This document shows, in pieces, positions 8,841-58,542 of a stretch of DNA of 64,000 nt. Source of the DNA: Nitrososphaerota archaeon (lineage in GTDB: Archaea > Thermoproteota > Nitrososphaeria > Nitrososphaerales > CADDZS01); contig DAHVAI010000406.1 of assembly GCA_027314685.1 (NCBI GenBank), forward strand, positions 3,152 through 67,151, written 5' to 3'. Both the position numbers and the translations under genes were made by a program. Below the pieces are notes generated by a model. It saw nothing but the letters and a program-made list of their open reading frames with translations, was not told where the DNA came from and did not search any database. The number at the start of each line of letters is the position of its first letter. The first letter of the stretch is position 1.

Positions 8841-9494
8841 TTACAGAGGTTCTTCCGTTTGCGCTGGGACCTTCAGGTACGCTGGAAGGTCAGGGAACTT
8901 GTCTCTGATGCTTTGCTCAGCGATCGCTCCTGCTTCAGCTATGACGCTCTCTGCTTCCTCGTTTGCAGCCTGTACGTTCACAACGCTCGGATTCACCTGT
9001 CCAGAATCAACAAGTATTCCATTGAGGATGCCGGATATCTCCTCAATCTCGCCTTGAACTTCTGGCAGAACGTTGGAAATCCCCGGTGCGATTCCTTTCA
9101 TGATGCCAAGGGCCGGCGAGAGGGTTGAAGCGACTTCTCCAAGATCCTGGACCGTGTTTATTCTTAGTTCGATTTGCTCAAACGCGAGCTTTGCCTGAGT
9201 CACCAGCTTGCCCAACTTGCGAATCTCTGTGAGCTCGTTTGCAAGCATCTTCGCACGCTGAGTGTCTCTCTTCTGGATTAGGGATACCACCCTTTCAAAA
9301 ATCTCCTTGTCTTTCGCAGCCAACCTGTCTGACTTTGCTGAGAGTTTTGCTATCTGAACCTGAATGTGTCTGTTCGCGCTCTCAAGTCTGGGTTTCAACG
9401 GCTCTGGTCCTCTTACCGCATTTTTCAGTCGAGTTCCAAGACTATCATAGCTAGACGGCTGATCCGTGTTCCAGTTCGAGGAAAAATTCGACAT
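8841..9494 (-). CDS. ESCRT-III / CdvB-family (Snf7-like) protein
   Basis: 217 residues from the ATG at 9494, which has a GAGGG purine stretch about 10 bases upstream; a GTG at 9572 would add 26 residues. The protein is almost wholly helical. The pattern G-P-E-P-L-K-P-R-L-E-S-A followed by I-Q-V-Q-I-A-K-L, R-D-T-Q-R-A-K-M-L-A-N-E-L-T-E-I-R and a conserved I-S-G-I-L-N-G-I-L-V-D-S-G-Q segment is that of thaumarchaeal CdvB paralogues. These assemble into membrane-remodelling filaments in cell division or vesicle formation. No CdvA or CdvC (Vps4) gene is nearby, and no broken-winged-helix CdvA-binding domain is seen, so this is probably an accessory paralogue. Confidence 0.85.
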   Translation of the reverse strand: MSNFSSNWNTDQPSSYDSLGTRLKNAVRGPEPLKPRLESANRHIQVQIAKLSAKSDRLAAKDKEIFERVVSLIQKRDTQRAKMLANELTEIRKLGKLVTQAKLAFEQIELRINTVQDLGEVASTLSPALGIMKGIAPGISNVLPEVQGEIEEISGILNGILVDSGQVNPSVVNVQAANEEAESVIAEAGAIAEQSIRDKFPDLPAYLKVPAQTEEPL

Positions 9495-9628
9495 TTGTTG
9501 TTCAACCCTCTTGACGGAGATAAGCTCGCGTGTCAAAATGGTGTGCGTTGGGAAATCTAATTCATTTGACACGCCTCAACATTCAGCGTCGGTTTCAATT
9601 CATTGCGAATTTCTGCAAGTGTCAGGTC

Positions 9629-19736: not shown

Positions 19737-20765
19737 TCAAGCCGGTTGCTGTTGGGTGACACAGTGTATCCCGCCAAACCCATAGACCAGCTCTCTGCAG
19801 TTAATTCCGACAGTCTTTCTTCCAGGGAAAAAACTCCCAATCATACCGAGTGCTTCCTGGTCTCTCTTTGGGTCGCCGAATATTGGCACTAGCACTGCGC
19901 TGTTTCCGATGTAAAAGTTTGCGTAGCTTGCAGGCAATCGACCATCCTCCACTTCCACCTTGCGCGGCATGTTGATGGGAACAACATGAAGCAAATTCCC
20001 GTCGGCATCTTTGTACCGACGCAGTGACTCGTAATTTCGTGCCAAGGCGGTGTAGTTTTCATCATCCTCATCCTTCTCTATCATGCAGACTACCGTGCTC
20101 TCGTTTACAAATCTGGCAATATCGTCTACATGGCCATCGGTATCATCTCCTGCGATGCCGTTAGAGAGCCAAATGAAATTTGTAAACCCGAGATACTCGC
20201 TCAAATGCTTCTCAATTTCCTTCTCGCTTAACGACGGATTTCTGTTTGTGTTGAGAAGACACTGTGTTGTAGTTAGACATGTGCGTGCTCCGTTTGTATC
20301 GATTGATCCTCCTTCAAGAACTATCTTTGGTTCAAAGGTTTTGAATTCTGTAACCCTGCAGATTTCATCACCGGTATGATTGTCCATGAGCAATTCATCG
20401 TATTTGTTTCCCCATGCATTGAATATCCACTTTGTCGCGGCGACCTCAGAATTCTTAATAAAAATGGGGCCGTAGTCGCGCATCCACACGTCAGCCGATT
20501 TGATTTTGTGAAACCGTACGTTATTGTTCGAACCGAGCAGTGATGAAACTCTGTCCTCTGTTTTCTCGTCGTCGACCAACAGTTCCACTCTTTCTCCGGT
20601 TCTTAGCGATTCGATCATTTCAACGTAAATCTCCTCCACACGACCGATGATATCTTCTGGAAATGTCAGAGGATCTTTTGGCCATGAAAGCCATGTCGCC
20701 TCGTGCTTCTCCCATTCCGCCGGCATCCTGAAGTTGAGCTCTTGCGGGGTCTTTAGATGATTCAT
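19737..20765 (-). CDS. aguA: Agmatine deiminase
   Basis: 342 residues, full length for the family (pentein fold). It converts agmatine to N-carbamoylputrescine and ammonia. Diagnostic parts: R-M-P-A-E-W-E-K-H-E-A-T-W-L-S-W-P near the start, V-W-M-R-D-Y-G-P-I-F about residue 92, L-E-G-G-S-I-D-T-N-G, N-G-I-A-G-D-D-T-D-G-H-V-D-D, and the C-terminal G-G-I-H-C-V-T-Q-Q with the catalytic cysteine. It starts 12 bases after the stop of the amidase that performs the next step, so the pair gives agmatine-to-putrescine conversion in one operon. Confidence 0.95.
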   Translation of the reverse strand: MNHLKTPQELNFRMPAEWEKHEATWLSWPKDPLTFPEDIIGRVEEIYVEMIESLRTGERVELLVDDEKTEDRVSSLLGSNNNVRFHKIKSADVWMRDYGPIFIKNSEVAATKWIFNAWGNKYDELLMDNHTGDEICRVTEFKTFEPKIVLEGGSIDTNGARTCLTTTQCLLNTNRNPSLSEKEIEKHLSEYLGFTNFIWLSNGIAGDDTDGHVDDIARFVNESTVVCMIEKDEDDENYTALARNYESLRRYKDADGNLLHVVPINMPRKVEVEDGRLPASYANFYIGNSAVLVPIFGDPKRDQEALGMIGSFFPGRKTVGINCRELVYGFGGIHCVTQQQPA

Positions 20766-20777
20766 CGTGCTTTCTCT

Positions 20778-21620
20778 TTATTGAGCAAGTCTTGCGTAAG
20801 TTCTAGGTTTACGATTTCTTAGAAAGCCCCAGCCTTCTTCAACCTGCTTTCCCAAATCAAGATCGCATTCGACAACAAGTACTTCTTCCTTGTCAACATG
20901 GGCTCTTGCAAGCAACTTTCCGAACTGATTGTAAACAAATGATCCGCCCCAAAACTTCGTATCCTTTTCTGTTCCGACGCGATTTACTGCTGCCACTATA
21001 ACACTGTTTGCGATCGCGTGTCCTCTCTGTACTGACTCCCAAGCTTCTTGCCAATTACCTTCGGATTGTTCTATGCCTGAGACGGTACCTATTGCGGTTG
21101 GATAGACGATGACCTCAGCTCCCAATATCCTCTCTGCCCTAACTGGCTCTGGGTACCATTGATCAAAGCAAATCAAAGGTCCTACTTTTGCAAATGTGGT
21201 CTTGAAAACTCTGTATGAATTCCCCGGAGAAAAATAATCTTGCTCGTAGAATCCTTCATCTTCAGGAATGTGTACCTTTCTGTACTTTCCAAGAATTCTT
21301 CCGTTTTGATCAGAAACGACGCAAGTGTTGTATCGTCTCTTGCCATCTGTTTCAAAGATTGATCCTCCTACTATCGCTACTTTATTCTTCTTTGCAGCTC
21401 GAGAAAGAAAACCGGTAGTTGGCCCTGGGATCTTTTCAGGTTTTACTGCTGACTTTTTTTCTTTCGGGAAGTACGGTGTTGTAAAGAGCTCTGGAAGGCA
21501 GACTAGCTGTGCGCCTTTCTTTGCGGCCTCCTCGATCATCGTAAGAGCCTTGGAAAGATTGACTTCCTTGTTATCGCTAACCGACATCTGGATTAGCCCG
21601 AGAGTGAGCAGCCTAGTCAT
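20778..21620 (-). CDS. aguB: N-carbamoylputrescine amidase
   Basis: 280 residues of the carbon-nitrogen hydrolase (nitrilase) superfamily. The Glu-Lys-Cys triad is visible: L-P-E-L-F-T-T-P-Y-F (Glu about 44), Y-R-K-V-H-I-P-E (Lys about 117) and L-I-C-F-D-Q-W-Y-P-E (Cys about 153). The F-Y-E-Q-D-Y-F loop and Q-W-Y-P-E match plant and bacterial N-carbamoylputrescine amidases. It yields putrescine, CO2 and ammonia. Genes on the same strand are the VWA protein upstream (46-base gap) and agmatine deiminase downstream. Confidence 0.93.
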   Translation of the reverse strand: MTRLLTLGLIQMSVSDNKEVNLSKALTMIEEAAKKGAQLVCLPELFTTPYFPKEKKSAVKPEKIPGPTTGFLSRAAKKNKVAIVGGSIFETDGKRRYNTCVVSDQNGRILGKYRKVHIPEDEGFYEQDYFSPGNSYRVFKTTFAKVGPLICFDQWYPEPVRAERILGAEVIVYPTAIGTVSGIEQSEGNWQEAWESVQRGHAIANSVIVAAVNRVGTEKDTKFWGGSFVYNQFGKLLARAHVDKEEVLVVECDLDLGKQVEEGWGFLRNRKPRTYARLAQ

Positions 21621-21666: not shown

Positions 21667-22242
21667 TCATTCTAGAGCTTGTGTCAGCTCGTAGGCGTTT
21701 CTCGCTAGCCAATACTTGCCGCCAGAATGGTTGGCTATCTGTTGCATCTTTGCCGTTGGATTCTCTGCGAGCTCAATGATGCTCAATGTTACCCCGAGAT
21801 CTTTAAAGATTCTGGCGTATGGTGTTGGGTCTGGCCCCTGGGAGTCTCCATCAGCAACAACATCAAGTCGCTTAACCTTCCTTTCTGATTCGCGAAGTAT
21901 TAATGATGCATATTTTAGACCATCAGAGATATAGCATCCTCCCTTTGCGTCTATTTTCTGCAACCGGAAAAGCTCTAAGCTCATTGGTGAAGGGTATAAT
22001 GGAACTATTACCTCGAATTTGGTTTCTCCAGGTACCCCGAGCAATCTGAAAGCCACAATCCCGAGTCGTATTGGTTTGTCGTAGTAAGACACAGGCCAGT
22101 ATTTGGAACAGAAAGCGAACAATCCGTCCTTTACCATCTCTAACTTACTTTGTTTCTCACCATGTAACTTCCAGCTCATACTTCTTGAGGTATCGATGAG
22201 AAATAACCGGTCTTGTAGCGGCTGATCCGAGTCGAAACTCAA
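21667..22242 (-). CDS. VWA-domain protein next to the tubulin-like gene
   Basis: 191 residues from a TTG at 22242. A longer frame to 22347 exists but would overlap the start of the divergent tubulin-like gene and add a non-domain extension. The MIDAS motif D-T-S-R-S-M stands about 20 residues in; the later threonine position lies near G-G-C-Y-I-S-D-G, and V-V-A-D-G-D-S-Q-G is the third metal-site loop. The fold is therefore a near-minimal von Willebrand A domain that should bind Mg and a protein partner. Divergent placement beside a tubulin-superfamily GTPase matches a published linkage of VWA proteins with the FtsZl1 family. Confidence 0.8.
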   Translation of the reverse strand: MSFDSDQPLQDRLFLIDTSRSMSWKLHGEKQSKLEMVKDGLFAFCSKYWPVSYYDKPIRLGIVAFRLLGVPGETKFEVIVPLYPSPMSLELFRLQKIDAKGGCYISDGLKYASLILRESERKVKRLDVVADGDSQGPDPTPYARIFKDLGVTLSIIELAENPTAKMQQIANHSGGKYWLARNAYELTQALE

Positions 22243-22301
22243 GTTAGCGAAGGAAAAACAACCAAAGATTATTAAAGGAATTTGCAGGCCTGCTTGATGA
22301 A

Positions 22302-23669
22302 ATGGCTCGCGACCTCGCGAAAGTAGCGCCGCTAGCTCCAAATCCAATCATTGTTGCTTGTATGGGTCACGCTGGAGTTGGCATTGGGGCAGAGGCATAC
22401 AGATGGGTTTTGCTAGATGTAGGTGCCGACCCGAAAGCACCTTCACTCAAGGGAGAGAAAGAACAACTGCAAGTCCTGAGACGCTACGGTAGCACTATAC
22501 TAAGGTTTGGCACTTCGATGCGTCGTGGTGAGGTTCCGCTTGTCCCACGTGCGTTGCTCGTAGATTTAGACCCACGTTCTGCTAACTTGATTTTACAGTC
22601 ATATCCTGAACTTTTCGCAATGAGAGACAAACACGCACTCTATGGTCTGGGAGGCGCAGCGAGAAATTGGGCCGAGGGCAGAAGAAGGTTCATGGAAGAG
22701 ATCGAGAAAAAGCAAGATGTTCAGAGTAGGATCAAATCCATCTCTCCAGAACCGGTACGCGGGTTCATACTTCCTTTCAGCATGGGCGGTGGAACAGGAG
22801 CGTCGTTCTCCTCAGAGTTCATGCGCTTCACCAAAGCTTCGAATGAACTTGGCTACTCAACTATCGCTTCATTTGGCATCCTGCCGGAATTTGGTTGGGA
22901 TCCTGTTATTTATGGACCATCTCACGTAAGCATAACTATGAGCTTGGCGCACCAGATGAAGTACTCTGACTGCCCAGTGTTACTCGATAACAAGGCTATG
23001 AGGGCGGCAACGACACGCATCGGGGACGCCATGAGCAAAAGAACTTCCATCGTCGATGACCTCCCAAAGCAAATCCAGGTAGGATGGAACGAGTACAGGA
23101 CTGTTAATCTGATATCAGCGCACGTAATTGCCGAGTTCATGTCCTCGTTCATACGCGAAACTGAATGGGATATGTCAAACTACAGAACTTGGCTCGCTGC
23201 CTCAAAGCCGCGCTTTGTCATACCCTGGTTGATGCCCTTATCTCCTCAGGGTGACTCTACCTTCCAGACAATCAGAGACCAAGTAGCAGCAGGAAATGAG
23301 GGTGTGCTTTTTGATCTCGGCGAAGATGAGGGTAAGGTTGAACCTGGTCCCAGAGATTCGGCTTGCGTTCTCGTCAAGACAAAGGGAAATGTCGAAGCTG
23401 AGGAGCGCAATCTTCTGAAGAAGATGATCCAGGATAGATTCCAGATCGAAGACAAGCGCGTTATTTTCATAAAGATACCAGCTCTGCAAAACGAACCAGC
23501 ATCGTGCATGGTGCTTCTGAACCTCCATGCAATTGGCCAGAGGTTGCTACCTTTCGTGAAAGAAGCAGAAGATGTATGGGACTCATACAAAGATGAGTAC
23601 GGGCGCAGGGGCTTGACTCAGGAAGAATTTAAGAAAGCGGTATTGGACATAACAGGTCATCTCGCGTAG
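22302..23669 (+). CDS. Tubulin/FtsZ-superfamily GTPase (FtsZl1- or tubulin-like)
   Basis: 455 residues. Loop T1 reads C-M-G-H-A-G-V-G-I-G (about 20-29) and T4 reads M-G-G-G-T-G-A (161-167), the tubulin/FtsZ GTP signature. Further parts resemble tubulin more than FtsZ: A-L-L-V-D-L-D-P (84-91), G-A-A-R-N-W-A-E-G (118-126), S-D-C-P-V-L-L-D-N-K-A (222-232) and W-L-M-P-L-S-P-Q-G (309-317). The T7 catalytic acid is probably D290 in E-W-D. It should bind GTP and polymerise. It lies 60 bases from the divergent VWA gene and 11 bases before a coiled-coil gene. FtsZ, CetZ and true tubulin identities are less likely than FtsZl1, judged by context. Confidence 0.85.
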   Translation: MARDLAKVAPLAPNPIIVACMGHAGVGIGAEAYRWVLLDVGADPKAPSLKGEKEQLQVLRRYGSTILRFGTSMRRGEVPLVPRALLVDLDPRSANLILQSYPELFAMRDKHALYGLGGAARNWAEGRRRFMEEIEKKQDVQSRIKSISPEPVRGFILPFSMGGGTGASFSSEFMRFTKASNELGYSTIASFGILPEFGWDPVIYGPSHVSITMSLAHQMKYSDCPVLLDNKAMRAATTRIGDAMSKRTSIVDDLPKQIQVGWNEYRTVNLISAHVIAEFMSSFIRETEWDMSNYRTWLAASKPRFVIPWLMPLSPQGDSTFQTIRDQVAAGNEGVLFDLGEDEGKVEPGPRDSACVLVKTKGNVEAEERNLLKKMIQDRFQIEDKRVIFIKIPALQNEPASCMVLLNLHAIGQRLLPFVKEAEDVWDSYKDEYGRRGLTQEEFKKAVLDITGHLA

Positions 23670-23680
23670 GAAGAGCGACT

Positions 23681-24247
23681 TTGGAACTCTCTGAGCTCGA
23701 AGTAATAGCTTCAAACCTTCTTGAACAGCAGAAGGAGCTCGACAATCTTGATAGAGAGATCGAGCGCGCGAAAATCGATCTACGCGAGTTTCCTCGCAAA
23801 TCTGCAGGCGAGAAGAAATTCTATGCCCTCATAGGCATGGAATGGGAAGAACCTAAGATCGAAGAGAGGCTAAAGTATCTCACTGAAAAGAAGGAAGCCT
23901 TGCAAAAGGTGATAACCGAAGTGAATGACAAAATCGTGGCAGCTCTCTCGGAAAAGAAGCTCGTGGTTCCTCTAGATCTTAATGCCGCCGTTAGTGGTGG
24001 TAGGTCGCATTACAAGTACAGGGGTAACACTAGTTATCCAAAGGCGATCCAAGAACTGGGGCACATATTGGGCCTGGAGATTCCACTCAAGATTGACGAT
24101 GTCCTCATAGAATATGACAAGATTACGGTGGATGAGACTGAGCCTCAATATGCGATGATGAAAGTAGTCGAGGCTTTCGATAAGATCAGCAGCACGGTAG
24201 CACTCAAACTAAAGGAGAGATCAACCAGCTGGAGGCTGGGATACTAG
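23681..24247 (+). CDS. Coiled-coil protein paired with the tubulin-like GTPase
   Basis: 188 residues from TTG 23681, 11 bases after the stop of the tubulin-like gene, so very likely co-translated. Charged heptad-like helices lie at about 1-38 and 58-95 (E-L-D-N-L-D-R-E-I-E; Y-L-T-E-K-K-E-A-L-Q-K), separated by a G-E-K-K-F-Y-A-L-I-G-M-E-W segment. The C-terminal half is a mixed alpha/beta region with Y-P-K-A-I-Q-E-L-G-H-I-L-G-L. No known family. Its likely role, inferred from position only, is adaptor or regulator of the GTPase filament. Confidence 0.75.
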   Translation: MELSELEVIASNLLEQQKELDNLDREIERAKIDLREFPRKSAGEKKFYALIGMEWEEPKIEERLKYLTEKKEALQKVITEVNDKIVAALSEKKLVVPLDLNAAVSGGRSHYKYRGNTSYPKAIQELGHILGLEIPLKIDDVLIEYDKITVDETEPQYAMMKVVEAFDKISSTVALKLKERSTSWRLGY

Positions 24248-54750: not shown

Positions 54751-56274
54751 TTGTCAGTTCAAAGAGCATTAAAGGAGGCGTTGAATCTTGGCTACCAGTT
54801 GGAGCCAAACGCCCTAACCTTGTTAAAGAAAGCGCTAGAAGCCAGTACCCAAAATTATAGTGCCGAGTCAGTTGTAAAGCTGGTGATGGAACAGAAGGCG
54901 AAGGTCGGAACTGGAAAGACCATTGAAGTCGAAGATTTGAAGCGTGTGTTGCCCGGGTTGTTCGACCTCGCTAAGCAAAGTGAAGTTAAGGTTGTCACAG
55001 AAACTGAATCAAAGGCTAGCACGACAAGCGATGATATCGAGATTGTGGAGGATGCGAGCCGGGAGGTACAACCCACTGGTGTAGAAGGTTTTCCACAGTT
55101 GTTCAAAAGCCGTTATGAGAAACTGGTTCGTATTTTGATGCAAAGGCCGGAAGGTAGGCATCTTACAAAAATCTCGAAAATTATTGGTGAGAAGGGCACT
55201 GTTAGGATCGCTGGACTTGTTTTTTCTAAAAGGCCGACCAAGACTGGGGGAGTGGAGTTCACCTTGGATGACGACTCTGGTAGTGTTTCTGTCCTTGCCG
55301 TAGGCGCCGAGGTGAAAAAGGCTGTTAGTGAGATCGCTCTTGACCAATGTGTGATGGTCGATGCAGACCCAGTGCAAGGAAGATGGATGGTGAAAAATGT
55401 CACGCAGCCTGATGTACCGAGCAAGAGTGCATCTACTTCGAAGAAAACGGCGTATGCTATTTTCCTTTCGGACCTACACATTGGCAGTAACAAGTTCTTA
55501 GAAGGGGCGTTTACACGCTTTTTGGATTGGCTAAGTGGGAAAGGAGCCTCTCCCGAAGACGAAGAGATCATTCGCAGGCTGAAGTATATCGTGATCGGCG
55601 GCGATGTTGTAGATGGAGTAGGTGTGTTTCCAAATCAAGAATATGAGTTGAACGAGCTGGATGTCTTCAAACAGTATGAAATGGTAGCGAACAAATTGAG
55701 TCTTGTTCCAAAACACTTGCAGATGTTAGTAATCCCTGGAAATCACGACGCAACAAGACAGGCACTGCCGCAACCAATGATTCCGGAAAAGTATGCAAAG
55801 GCTCTGTACAGTTTGCCGAATGTAAAGATGGTGGGTGACCCATGTCTGTTTAAGCTTCACGGGGTGTCAATTCTTGCGTATCACGGTAGAAGTCTTGATG
55901 ATGTTCTGGCTACAACCCCGGGGCTTTCTTATGAAAGGCCACAAGAAGCGATGAAGGTGCTTCTACGCGCGAGACATCTAGCCCCAATTTTCGGTATGAG
56001 GACCCCGATAGCACCTGAAGTTGAAGATCACCTAGTGATTAACGAAGTACCTGATGTATTCCATTCTGGGCACGTGCACACCATTGGAGAGGAGCGGTAC
56101 AAATCGACGCTCATTATTAATTCTGGAACGTGGCAAGGGCAAACCGGGTACCAAGCAAATTTAGGGATTAGCCCCACACCAGGAGTAATTCCAATAGTTA
56201 ATCTGGCTAATTTGGAGATTATTTGGAGGGGTTTCCTGACAAGCTCGACAACTAGCCTGCCACAAGTTGGTTGA
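54751..56274 (+). CDS. polB: DNA polymerase D small subunit (DP1)
   Basis: 507 residues from a TTG start. An N-terminal helical part (about 1-115) is followed by an OB fold (about 140-215; T-L-D-D-D-S-G-S-V-S) and a calcineurin-like phosphoesterase domain: F-L-S-D-L-H-I-G-S, V-I-G-G-D-V-V-D-G, I-P-G-N-H-D-A, H-S-G-H-V-H-T and I-N-S-G-T-W-Q. These metal ligands make the 3'-5' proofreading exonuclease of PolD. The large subunit lies at 60.9 kb. The 3' end overlaps that of orc1 by 23 bases (convergent). Confidence 0.95.
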   Translation: MSVQRALKEALNLGYQLEPNALTLLKKALEASTQNYSAESVVKLVMEQKAKVGTGKTIEVEDLKRVLPGLFDLAKQSEVKVVTETESKASTTSDDIEIVEDASREVQPTGVEGFPQLFKSRYEKLVRILMQRPEGRHLTKISKIIGEKGTVRIAGLVFSKRPTKTGGVEFTLDDDSGSVSVLAVGAEVKKAVSEIALDQCVMVDADPVQGRWMVKNVTQPDVPSKSASTSKKTAYAIFLSDLHIGSNKFLEGAFTRFLDWLSGKGASPEDEEIIRRLKYIVIGGDVVDGVGVFPNQEYELNELDVFKQYEMVANKLSLVPKHLQMLVIPGNHDATRQALPQPMIPEKYAKALYSLPNVKMVGDPCLFKLHGVSILAYHGRSLDDVLATTPGLSYERPQEAMKVLLRARHLAPIFGMRTPIAPEVEDHLVINEVPDVFHSGHVHTIGEERYKSTLIINSGTWQGQTGYQANLGISPTPGVIPIVNLANLEIIWRGFLTSSTTSLPQVG

Positions 56275-57466
56275 GCAGTTCATCAGATTTGAATGCTTGT
56301 TGTAGTGTTGTGATTGATATTTGTGGTGTGATTTTTTTTGTTCGCCCATACCTTCCGTAATTAACTATGGCGGCCGAAAGGAGCCCCAGCGTGTCTAGTT
56401 CTGATATGAGCCCAGAGACTCGTCTGGTGGTAAGGGGTTCCACACTGGTTGCAGCGCAAAGGTGGGAATACTGATCATAAATAGACCCACTAGATGCCTT
56501 GGCGTCGTTGGTTATAGCGGTTTTGAGAGCTGCTATCAAAACCAGCTTTGCCTGTAGGGGTAAGGTCCGTAATGCATCTGTAATTCTGTCTTGGTCGATT
56601 TTTTGTACGGCAATGCGCACATGTCGCTCATCGAGTTGTTGCGCACCGTCACGTTCAGCAACTTCACCTGCTATCCGGAGCAGGTCTACGGCTCTTCTTG
56701 CGTCACCATGTTCGGATCCTGAAAGTGCTGCACAAAGATTGACAGCTGCTTCTGAAAAGCTTCCAGGGTTGAAGGCAGTCTGGGCCCTTTGTTGGAGGAT
56801 TGTCTTTAGTTCAATTGCTGAATATGGTGGGAAGACAATTTCCTCCTCTGATAAGCGACTGAGTACCCGTGCACCTAGTAATTCCTTAAACTGAAGATCA
56901 TTAGAGATTCCTAGAAGGGAGAGGAATCCAGGGGTTATGGATGTTGCTGAATTTGTCAAATCATAAAGAATATCATCACCGAATGATTTCACCAAATAGT
57001 CAATTTCATCCAAGACAACGACTGTGTGTAGAGAGTTTGTCTTCATGTGTTTTTGGATGCGGGTGAGTACCTCGCTCACAGCTAGCCCTGTGAATGGCAC
57101 GTTAAGTCCTATTCCTGTAGCGAGTTCTGCAAGAGCTCTGTACTCAGTTCCAGCGTTTCGAATGTTAGCGTAAATGAATTTTGCAGGGATGTGTTTGGTA
57201 GTACATGTTTGGCTAAGTTTGTTAAGGACGTATTTTGTCGCGGCTGTCTTTCCTGTTCCTGTCTTCCCATAGATCAGGATGTTAGATGGTTTGGTTGAAT
57301 GGAGTAGCGGTGCCAAAATCTCTGCTATGGAATTTAATTGTTGAGATCTGAAAGGGAGGTTTTCAGGTATGTAGTCAGATCGTAGCGCGTCATGGTTTTT
57401 AAAAAGACGTCTTGATGTAAGTGCCCTCGTAAAGATACCATCAAGAGAATCGTTTTGCTGTACCAA
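56252..57466 (-). CDS. Orc1/Cdc6 replication initiator
   Basis: 404 residues from a TTG start. AAA+ domain: Walker A Y-G-K-T-G-T-G-K-T-A-A (about 65-75), Walker B V-V-V-L-D-E-I-D-Y-L-V, sensor 1 region L-G-I-S-N-D, and the lid with A-R-R-A-V-D-L-L-R-I-A. The C-terminal winged helix (about 310-395) contains T-T-R-R-V-S-G-L-I-S-E-L-D-T-L-G-L-L. It binds origin repeats and recruits MCM. Its start faces the ORB-rich origin at 57.5-57.9 kb, the classical archaeal arrangement. Confidence 0.95.
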   Translation of the reverse strand: MVQQNDSLDGIFTRALTSRRLFKNHDALRSDYIPENLPFRSQQLNSIAEILAPLLHSTKPSNILIYGKTGTGKTAATKYVLNKLSQTCTTKHIPAKFIYANIRNAGTEYRALAELATGIGLNVPFTGLAVSEVLTRIQKHMKTNSLHTVVVLDEIDYLVKSFGDDILYDLTNSATSITPGFLSLLGISNDLQFKELLGARVLSRLSEEEIVFPPYSAIELKTILQQRAQTAFNPGSFSEAAVNLCAALSGSEHGDARRAVDLLRIAGEVAERDGAQQLDERHVRIAVQKIDQDRITDALRTLPLQAKLVLIAALKTAITNDAKASSGSIYDQYSHLCAATSVEPLTTRRVSGLISELDTLGLLSAAIVNYGRYGRTKKITPQISITTLQQAFKSDELLNQLVAG

Positions 57467-57479
57467 GTTAGAGACCTAC

Positions 57480-57960
57480 CTATTTTTCAACTGGAGAAGT
57501 TGGTTTAGTAATGAAAGTTCTAAATTATTCATTTTCAAGAACTATGTAGGGTTTACACTTAATATAACAAAAACCCTAAAGTCATAACGTCTTTACTTAT
57601 AGTCAACTATAATTAAATTCTACACTATTCTGAAGCCCTTTCTCCTAACTATTTCCACTGGAACATTAAGGGTGGGGTCTGACCATAATTCAAAAACCAG
57701 TTCAAAGAGTCCAGAACGCACCCCTTTCCTTCCACTGGACCATTTCTGTGCTTCTAGACATGTCTAGATTGTCTATTGGAACACCCCTATATTTCCACTG
57801 GAGACAATCAAGACTTCACTCTTATACATCATTAACTGGAAGCCACCCATTGTGAAACCATATCAACAGCCCAAATTCAAAAATTAAATATCTCAAGTCG
57901 ACGAAATTGATCTGACCTAGGAAGTAACAAGTTAACACCTAGACTCCTTATCTAGAGAGT
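57480..57960. other. Replication origin (oriC) with ORB-like elements
   Basis: A gene-free A+T-rich region between orc1 and a wHTH gene. TCCACTGGA occurs three times on the plus strand, at 57654-57662, 57731-57739 and 57794-57802. Each is followed, in one orientation, by a G-run as in archaeal origin-recognition boxes: the first reads right (TTAAGGGTGGGG), the second and third read left (complement of GCACCCCTTTCC and of ACACCCCTATATT). Weaker relatives are at 57489 and 57833. A stretch of about 80 bases at 57541-57620 is about 26% G+C by hand count, a candidate unwinding element. Confidence 0.85.
57753..57768. repeat. Perfect 16-bp palindrome inside the origin
   Basis: TCTAGACATGTCTAGA, self-complementary over its whole length, lies between the second and third ORB-like elements. 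It may be a protein binding site or a spacer feature of the origin. Confidence 0.6.
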
Positions 57961-57997
57961 ACTCTTATCATTGTTAACAGTCAAGCTGTTTATCTGA

Positions 57998-58462
57998 ATG
58001 CAACTCGAGCACACTAACCAATCAGTCAAGATTAAGATTGAGTTCAGTGATGATTCTGGAACGAAGTACTCATTCAACATCCAAGGATCATCAAAAGATA
58101 ACATCCAGAAACTCCTTGACTTTGCTGAATCAGTCTCAAGTAAGAACGCACTCCCTAATGAGGAGCAGGTAGTCGACACGAACTTTGCAAAATTATATGG
58201 ATTACTTGAGAGTAGGTTCCGCTTTGGCTCCTTCACTTCTAATGACGTTCTCAAGGCATATCAACAAGATTTTGCCCAAACTACAACACATAGCATTATC
58301 TCAACATATCTCTCTAGAATGACCCGTAGAGGTCTTTTGAATAGGATAAGGCAACGTTCAGGCTGGCTTTATAGACTAGCAAGGACTGAAGAACAAAGAC
58401 AACAACTAATCAGCCAACCAACACCATCAAACCTAGTCAAACTACCTGAAATAACTCCATAA
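57998..58462 (+). CDS. wHTH protein next to the origin
   Basis: 154 residues, ATG start. The first about 50 residues form strands (V-K-I-K-I-E-F-S-D-D-S-G-T-K-Y-S-F-N-I) and a helix, and the C-terminal part (about 65-135) has a winged-helix pattern: F-G-S-F-T-S-N-D-V-L-K-A-Y, T-T-H-S-I-I-S-T-Y-L-S-R-M-T-R-R-G-L-L and W-L-Y-R-L-A. It lies on the other side of the origin from orc1. Whether it regulates orc1 or transcription near the origin is not known. Family without a name for me. Confidence 0.65.
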   Translation: MQLEHTNQSVKIKIEFSDDSGTKYSFNIQGSSKDNIQKLLDFAESVSSKNALPNEEQVVDTNFAKLYGLLESRFRFGSFTSNDVLKAYQQDFAQTTTHSIISTYLSRMTRRGLLNRIRQRSGWLYRLARTEEQRQQLISQPTPSNLVKLPEITP

Positions 58463-58542
58463 TTAGGCGACCTTAGATTCCTCTAAGGACTCACATAGCA
58501 CAAACACTTATCTCGATCCTCCACATAGAATATTCTCGGAGC

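Follow-up and report, generated by a model that had tools for sequence, protein, structure and literature searches.

What is encoded by the tubulin/FtsZ-superfamily gene that lies between a VWA-domain gene and a coiled-coil gene in contig DAHVAI010000406.1 of a Nitrososphaerota archaeon (GCA_027314685.1), and how could its product work? We analysed 64,000 nucleotides of this contig (positions 3,152 to 67,151 of the forward strand), referred to below as the window, the coordinates of which are used throughout. A sequence-only reading had proposed a possible uncharacterised filament system and pointed to FtsZl1. Our analysis identifies the 455-residue protein as an artubulin, an assignment that we hold to be practically certain.

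The protein matches the Pfam family Tubulin (PF00091, E 3.2e-12, above the cut-off), the sole Pfam family detected at E<=1. In phmmer and profile searches of PDB chains, Asgard tubulins lead the matches, followed by gamma-, alpha- and beta-tubulins; of the 170 or 171 matches, 60 rows were shown, and none of these is an FtsZ. With hhalign, a profile of 82 artubulins was aligned to eight full-length AtubB proteins almost from end to end (residues 14-449 to 3-411, E 3e-17, probability 98.9), but to seven FtsZ-type proteins in just 84 columns near the GTP loop (probability 57). The expected closeness to tubulin rather than FtsZ is thus borne out. The FtsZ hallmarks, namely the T7 motif NxDxxD and a whole-length FtsZ match, are missing, and so is the catalytic T7 glutamate of eukaryotic and Asgard-type tubulins, replaced by N293. 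In a maximum-likelihood tree of 40 rows the artubulins, including the window protein, group as a single clade (100/99), and artubulins together with AtubB are separated from the FtsZ rows (100/100). The tree has long branches and was built with CetZ and eukaryotic tubulins left out; it is mute on the origin of tubulin.

Artubulins were described from two Nitrosarchaeum genomes that also have FtsZ, in which the artubulin gene lies beside a Snf7 gene (Yutin and Koonin, 2012; PMC3349469). The name applies to the window protein because it shares one clade with Nitrosarchaeum-type members showing the published Snf7, dCMP deaminase and DNA polymerase neighbours; these members were recognised by genus name and neighbours, not by the N. 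limnia or N. koreensis proteins themselves. Locus L073, for example, has Snf7 (PF03357, E 3e-7), dCMP deaminase and family B DNA polymerase genes upstream of artubulin. The protein family is therefore one already described. The features of the locus are as follows.

22302..23669, plus strand: artubulin (tubulin-family GTPase), 455 residues; PF00091, PDB matches, AtubB profile match, tree.
22785..22799, plus strand: T4 GTP loop GGGTG, residues 162-166; conserved across artubulins.
23154..23195, plus strand: T7 segment RETEWDMSNYRTWL, residues 285-298; same register in MAFFT and hhalign.
23681..24247, plus strand: coiled-coil partner, 188 residues; linkage counts, AlphaFold2 model.
21667..22242, minus strand: VWA-domain protein, 191 residues from TTG 22242, with metal ion-dependent adhesion site (MIDAS) DTSRS; PF13519, E 5.5e-7.
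22243..22301, no strand: divergent control region of 59 bp; TATA-like stretch ATTATTAAA at 22268-22276.

The open reading frames and motifs of the sequence-only reading were all found as described: G-G-G-T-G at residues 162-166, SDCPVLLDN at 222-230, WLMPLSP at 309-315, and D290. Conservation was assessed in 203 artubulins (122 database proteins, 80 loci and the window), a set in which species overlap and some entries are fragments. Residues 163-166 of the GTP loop are unchanged in all 202 proteins covering them, and residue 162 is glycine in 201 of 203. In the T7 loop, MAFFT and hhalign both place artubulin ETEWDMSNY against AtubB SLNTDMKEF, and MAFFT places the two against FtsZ LINIDYADL. 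Because the two registers agree, N293, and not D290, is assigned to the hydrolysis-activating site. D290, which had been taken for the likely T7 acid, is the first T7 aspartate (conserved in 201 of 202 artubulins), but the catalytic position, that of alpha-tubulin E254 and the AtubB glutamate, is occupied by asparagine in 200 of the 201 proteins covering it. Tubulin E254 is presumed here to correspond to FtsZ D212. In human alpha-tubulin, the E254N mutation abolishes GTP hydrolysis, and the microtubules grow persistently and free of catastrophe (PMC8764682); beta-tubulin has lysine at the T7 acid site, which does not support hydrolysis, and K248 of AtubA probably behaves likewise (PMC13394414). 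A single artubulin match was found in 84 of 87 artubulin genomes, and therefore a second artubulin subunit would rarely be available to supply the acid.

The coiled-coil gene, which starts 11 bp after the tubulin stop as noted earlier, is the constant companion of artubulin. Among the 80 named loci (kept of 86 found), it lies immediately downstream of artubulin on the same strand in 75; in the remaining five, the contig ends 0-139 bases past the tubulin gene. In a sample of 400 genomes of the class, all 87 genomes with artubulin have the coiled-coil gene; of 90 artubulin places, 86 are directly beside it, the two matches being 5-21 bp apart. The four other places (G233, G300, G289 and G302) correspond by coordinates to loci L063, L076, L079 and L080, all at a contig end. 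The pair is retained while the surrounding genes differ: these are VWA and an unknown gene in the window's clade; a SHOCT-like gene (below the cut-off), a gene that we read as TPR-like, and a sodium/proton exchanger gene in Ca. Nitrosotalea devanaterra (L026); Nre and an exosortase-like gene in Nitrosotenuis (L057); and Snf7 in Nitrosarchaeum. Artubulin and the coiled-coil protein very probably constitute a two-gene module, and the idea of a module with its own coiled-coil partner is supported.

The AlphaFold2 model of the partner is confident (mean predicted local distance difference test score 90.4, predicted template modelling score 0.75) and has a helical hairpin (residues 3-91) followed by an alpha/beta head (about 94-186). 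The partner has no Pfam family above the cut-off, and the 120 listed of its 382 homologues (E<=0.01) have neither a Pfam domain nor any name other than "hypothetical". Searches with NCBIfam and PADLOC gave weak matches only, the best of them (E 0.013 and 0.0047, respectively) both to this protein. No report of its linkage to artubulin, or of the T7 asparagine, was found in open-licence PMC full texts. Figure 2B of Yutin and Koonin (PMC3349469) lists a "conserved hypothetical protein", and Figure 6 of Santana-Molina draws coiled-coil genes near archaeal tubulin-like genes; these figures may already show the gene for one locus.

The third gene has a narrower distribution. The product of the leftward gene matches VWA_2 (PF13519, E 5.5e-7, above the cut-off). 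Its longest frame, 21667-22347 on the minus strand, has a start that overlaps the tubulin gene, while TTG 22242 is the start that matches the relatives (LSFDSD/LSYDES), giving 191 residues and a gap of 59 bp. The same three-gene arrangement recurs in 19 other loci (L001-L019), which is far beyond chance. In all of them VWA is the divergent neighbour of artubulin (in L002 within a longer overlapping frame) and has the D-x-S-x-S motif. Of 101 genomes sampled from the window's order, 21 have artubulin and nine have a strong VWA match (E<1e-30), which is divergent in all nine, with 71-88 bp between the matches; 12 artubulin genomes are without a strong copy, and two weak matches lie elsewhere (G254, 2e-7; G035, 7e-5). 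An even sample of 120 class genomes gave a strong match in G001 only. VWA is thus a real third gene, but one seen, with its conserved linkage to artubulin, only in the window's clade. In the control region between the two genes, a run of eight A/T bases precedes the tubulin start, both in the window and in 16 of the 19 clade loci. A TATA-like stretch lies at about -30 from the tubulin start in the window and most loci, and at about -45 in L015-L017; GTATAAAA was found by eye in L010 and L014, and no TATA-like stretch in L002. In clade loci of which L009 is an example, a gene for an IF-2-type translation GTPase follows at a greater distance downstream.

The distribution of artubulin is patchy but spans the class. 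A search gave 158 homologues at E<=0.001, and among the 120 listed, all source names that bear an organism are Nitrososphaeria (Thaumarchaeota/Nitrososphaerota). Artubulin was found in 87 of the 400 class genomes and in 23 of 398 genomes of the phylum; all 23 are also among the class matches, and none of the 398 has artubulin outside the class. Each of 13 related genomes, a set without the window's own genome, has at least one further PF00091 protein besides artubulin. The second such protein of G010, the source of L061, resembles gammaproteobacterial ones and is possibly a contaminant; in G002, artubulin and a thaumarchaeal-type FtsZ are joined by a third protein (L082), the FtsZ motifs of which are intact. 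Two loci, L061 (BMAH01000059.1) and L002 (DAIDAO010000036.1), carry thaumarchaeal artubulin loci under the titles of a gammaproteobacterium and a bacterium, respectively; these are probably mislabelled or mixed bins.

How such a protein may work can be proposed as follows. By its sequence, artubulin is an archaeal tubulin of one subunit, and its GTP loop is intact. It may polymerise head to tail, as other tubulins do, so that the T7 loop of one subunit would close the nucleotide pocket of the next. As the hydrolysis-triggering acid of T7 is a near-invariant asparagine, this contact should not fire the GTPase, and, by analogy with E254N, the filaments would be GTP-bound and long-lived. Disassembly, placement or bundling would depend on the coiled-coil partner, which presumably binds artubulin, and in the window's clade also on the VWA protein; turnover or anchoring may be set by the partner. 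CdvA is present in nine of 13 artubulin genomes, and Snf7 in ten at E<=0.001 (five above the family cut-off). Because most related genomes checked also have these genes, the likely use would be shape or an internal scaffold rather than a division ring; as CdvA and Snf7 are common and 313 of the 400 class genomes do without artubulin, division is probably independent of it. We see the case for a stable GTP-bound filament governed by the partner, drawn from the E254N analogy, as evenly balanced, and have less confidence in the scaffold role. The complete proposal, in which artubulin is a homomeric hydrolysis-dead tubulin, a natural "E254N", with its dynamics handed to the coiled-coil protein and in one clade also to VWA, is put forward tentatively.

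Several observations weigh against this proposal. First, Tubulin_C (PF03953), present in the Asgard proteins P0121-P0128, is absent from the window artubulin at E<=1, although the artubulin C-terminal region aligns to AtubB by profile. Second, the T7 geometry is read from two sequence alignments. Third, artubulin is missing from 313 class genomes, so that most of the class does without it. Finally, a dedicated partner is questioned by coiled-coil relatives in 41 of these 313 genomes, many of them truncated and six of them full-length divergent copies (L137-L142) beside a radical-SAM gene (Pfam-tested in L137); the family therefore has, or once had, another role. In the five of these six loci whose far side was shown, an AMP-ligase-like gene follows. 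Three of the six genomes (G079, G089 and G092) have one PF00091 protein only, a longer FtsZ with inserts.

Twenty of the 41 artubulin-free coiled-coil loci were retrieved, and neighbours were viewed for part of them (not for L145 and L146). Copies reduced to the head (117-158 residues; L147-L152, L155 and L156) lie among genes for EMG1/Nep1, RNase P Rpr2/Rpp21 and ribosomal protein S19e, a neighbourhood assigned by Pfam in L148 and L150 and by eye in the others; a function connected with RNA or the ribosome is possible for the head. L153 is located elsewhere, no open frame was found in L154, and the copy of G266 is at a contig end. In L144 (G204), the coiled-coil gene is 93-95% identical to that of L021 but is split into two parts that lie in different reading frames, and the 1.7 kb upstream gave no match to artubulin; the gene is possibly a remnant in decay or an artefact of assembly. 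In an unrooted tree, the copies of each unlinked type group together as a single clade on a long branch. The simplest story is an ancestral pair and several losses of artubulin, with the partner then truncated or repurposed; the tree, being unrooted, is no proof of it.

Of the competing explanations, the one that survives best, though unlikely, is that artubulin is dynamic, the missing acid being supplied either in trans by the coiled-coil partner, in the manner of a GTPase-activating protein, or in cis by E286 or E288, with turnover on partner binding. Both glutamates adjoin T7 and are invariant in the 82 aligned rows, the partner is always present, and its acids E7 and D57 are nearly invariant (at least 90% of 57 rows); however, the two glutamates occupy non-catalytic T7 positions in both alignments, and none of the ten strictly invariant columns of the partner is an acid. 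Less probable again is an artubulin that does not polymerise but forms a complex with the coiled-coil protein, in which it would be a GTP-bound scaffold or switch. The loss of the catalytic acid would fit such a role, and FtsZ of N. maritimus, the other tubulin-superfamily protein of the class, did not polymerise in yeast (PMC3684127); the protein tested there is not artubulin, though, and the similarity of artubulin to tubulin, which runs over the whole length and takes in both the T7 register and the C-terminal region, argues for a polymer.

Action with the endosomal sorting complex ESCRT-III in cell division, proposed by Yutin and Koonin for Nitrosarchaeum (PMC3349469), appears improbable. 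In seven of the 80 loci (L056, L065-L068, L072 and L073), artubulin is next to a gene from one Snf7 cluster, with a Pfam Snf7 match in L073 and beside artubulin in G008, G011 and G012. No Snf7 gene adjoins artubulin in the window, a point that we did not treat as defining; the nearest known Snf7-like gene (8841-9572, minus strand; PF03357, E 1e-6) is a CdvB-like gene 12.7 kb away, similar in kind to the one that adjoins artubulin in Nitrosarchaeum. Against such a role, the Snf7 cluster was not seen in the other 73 loci, where not all unlabelled neighbours were Pfam-scanned, the Nitrosotenuis genome paper reports artubulin without Snf7 proximity (PMC3835317), and 313 class genomes are devoid of artubulin. 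An FtsZl1/VWA membrane-remodelling system is hardly credible. A VWA gene whose MIDAS motif is intact does adjoin artubulin, but the tubulin_2 domain, found in Makarova and Koonin's FtsZ-like group (PMC9871819), gave no profile match (PF00091 being the only one at E<=1), and no kinase or OmpA-like partner occurs among the neighbours scanned with Pfam (not every neighbour was). Since VWA was observed beside artubulin in the window's clade only, the resemblance to FtsZl1 operons appears to be a coincidence.

Other genes of the window were also noted. A PAD_porph-type deiminase gene and a carbon-nitrogen hydrolase gene are adjacent to each other beside the VWA gene (19737-21620, minus strand); we take them to be an agmatine-to-putrescine pair. 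A gene similar to the DNA polymerase small subunit (DNA_pol_E_B) and a Cdc6/Orc1 gene are found at 54751-58500, and the cumulative GC skew of the window peaks near 58 kb; a replication origin is likely near these genes, approximately 35 kb from artubulin.

Artubulins are considered candidate deep relatives of eukaryotic tubulin, their place being unresolved (PMC13394414). The figure legend of a 2024 review names them from two genomes only (PMC7617429), and the 2026 Asgard tubulin paper gathered them by PSI-BLAST (PMC13394414); because artubulins were thus collected from databases, their wider spread is not new in itself. No report of artubulin function was found in the open-licence PMC full texts. 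The coiled-coil linkage, the clade-specific VWA gene and Asn293 of T7 go beyond the literature searched. A partner gene kept wherever the contig permits a view offers a direct route to the function of artubulin, and the T7 asparagine gives a sharp prediction of GTP-locked filaments, bearing on whether a useful tubulin needs assembly-coupled hydrolysis. If the proposal is true, the partner would be the first accessory factor linked to any archaeal tubulin from outside the Asgard group, and archaea of the ammonia-oxidiser class would have a tubulin cytoskeleton operating without assembly-coupled GTP hydrolysis.

Comparison with known systems places the window protein in the family of the Nitrosarchaeum artubulins (PMC3349469), class-restricted in our samples, tubulin-like over its length and accompanied by a second, FtsZ-type protein in related genomes. 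It is 51-53% identical to the proteins of Nitrosarchaeum loci L056, L067, L068 and L073, and its locus differs from theirs in having a divergent VWA gene and no adjacent Snf7; the coiled-coil partner and the T7 asparagine are not discussed in the available part of the published account. FtsZl1-VWA systems (PMC2875224) likewise have a tubulin-superfamily gene beside a VWA gene, but artubulin is of a different protein family and its VWA linkage is divergent and clade-specific. Thaumarchaeal FtsZ (Nmar_1262 type; PMC3684127), the second tubulin-superfamily protein in most related genomes, is shorter (~314-358 residues), and in part of the class its GTP loop is altered; in the tree it falls with FtsZ rather than artubulin. 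In the five rows displayed, where the alignment is poor, no T7 acid can be recognised, which matches the report that the N. maritimus protein tested in yeast is without both motifs. The Asgard tubulins AtubA and AtubB (PMC13394414) resemble artubulin in whole-length profile similarity and operonic location, but AtubAB is a heterodimer, whereas artubulin is single-copy in nearly all genomes and has neither the catalytic glutamate nor a detectable Tubulin_C. Finally, human alpha-tubulin E254N (PMC8764682) has asparagine at the same catalytic T7 position; there it is an engineered mutation of a heterodimer, while in artubulin it is natural, near-invariant and part of a single-subunit protein.

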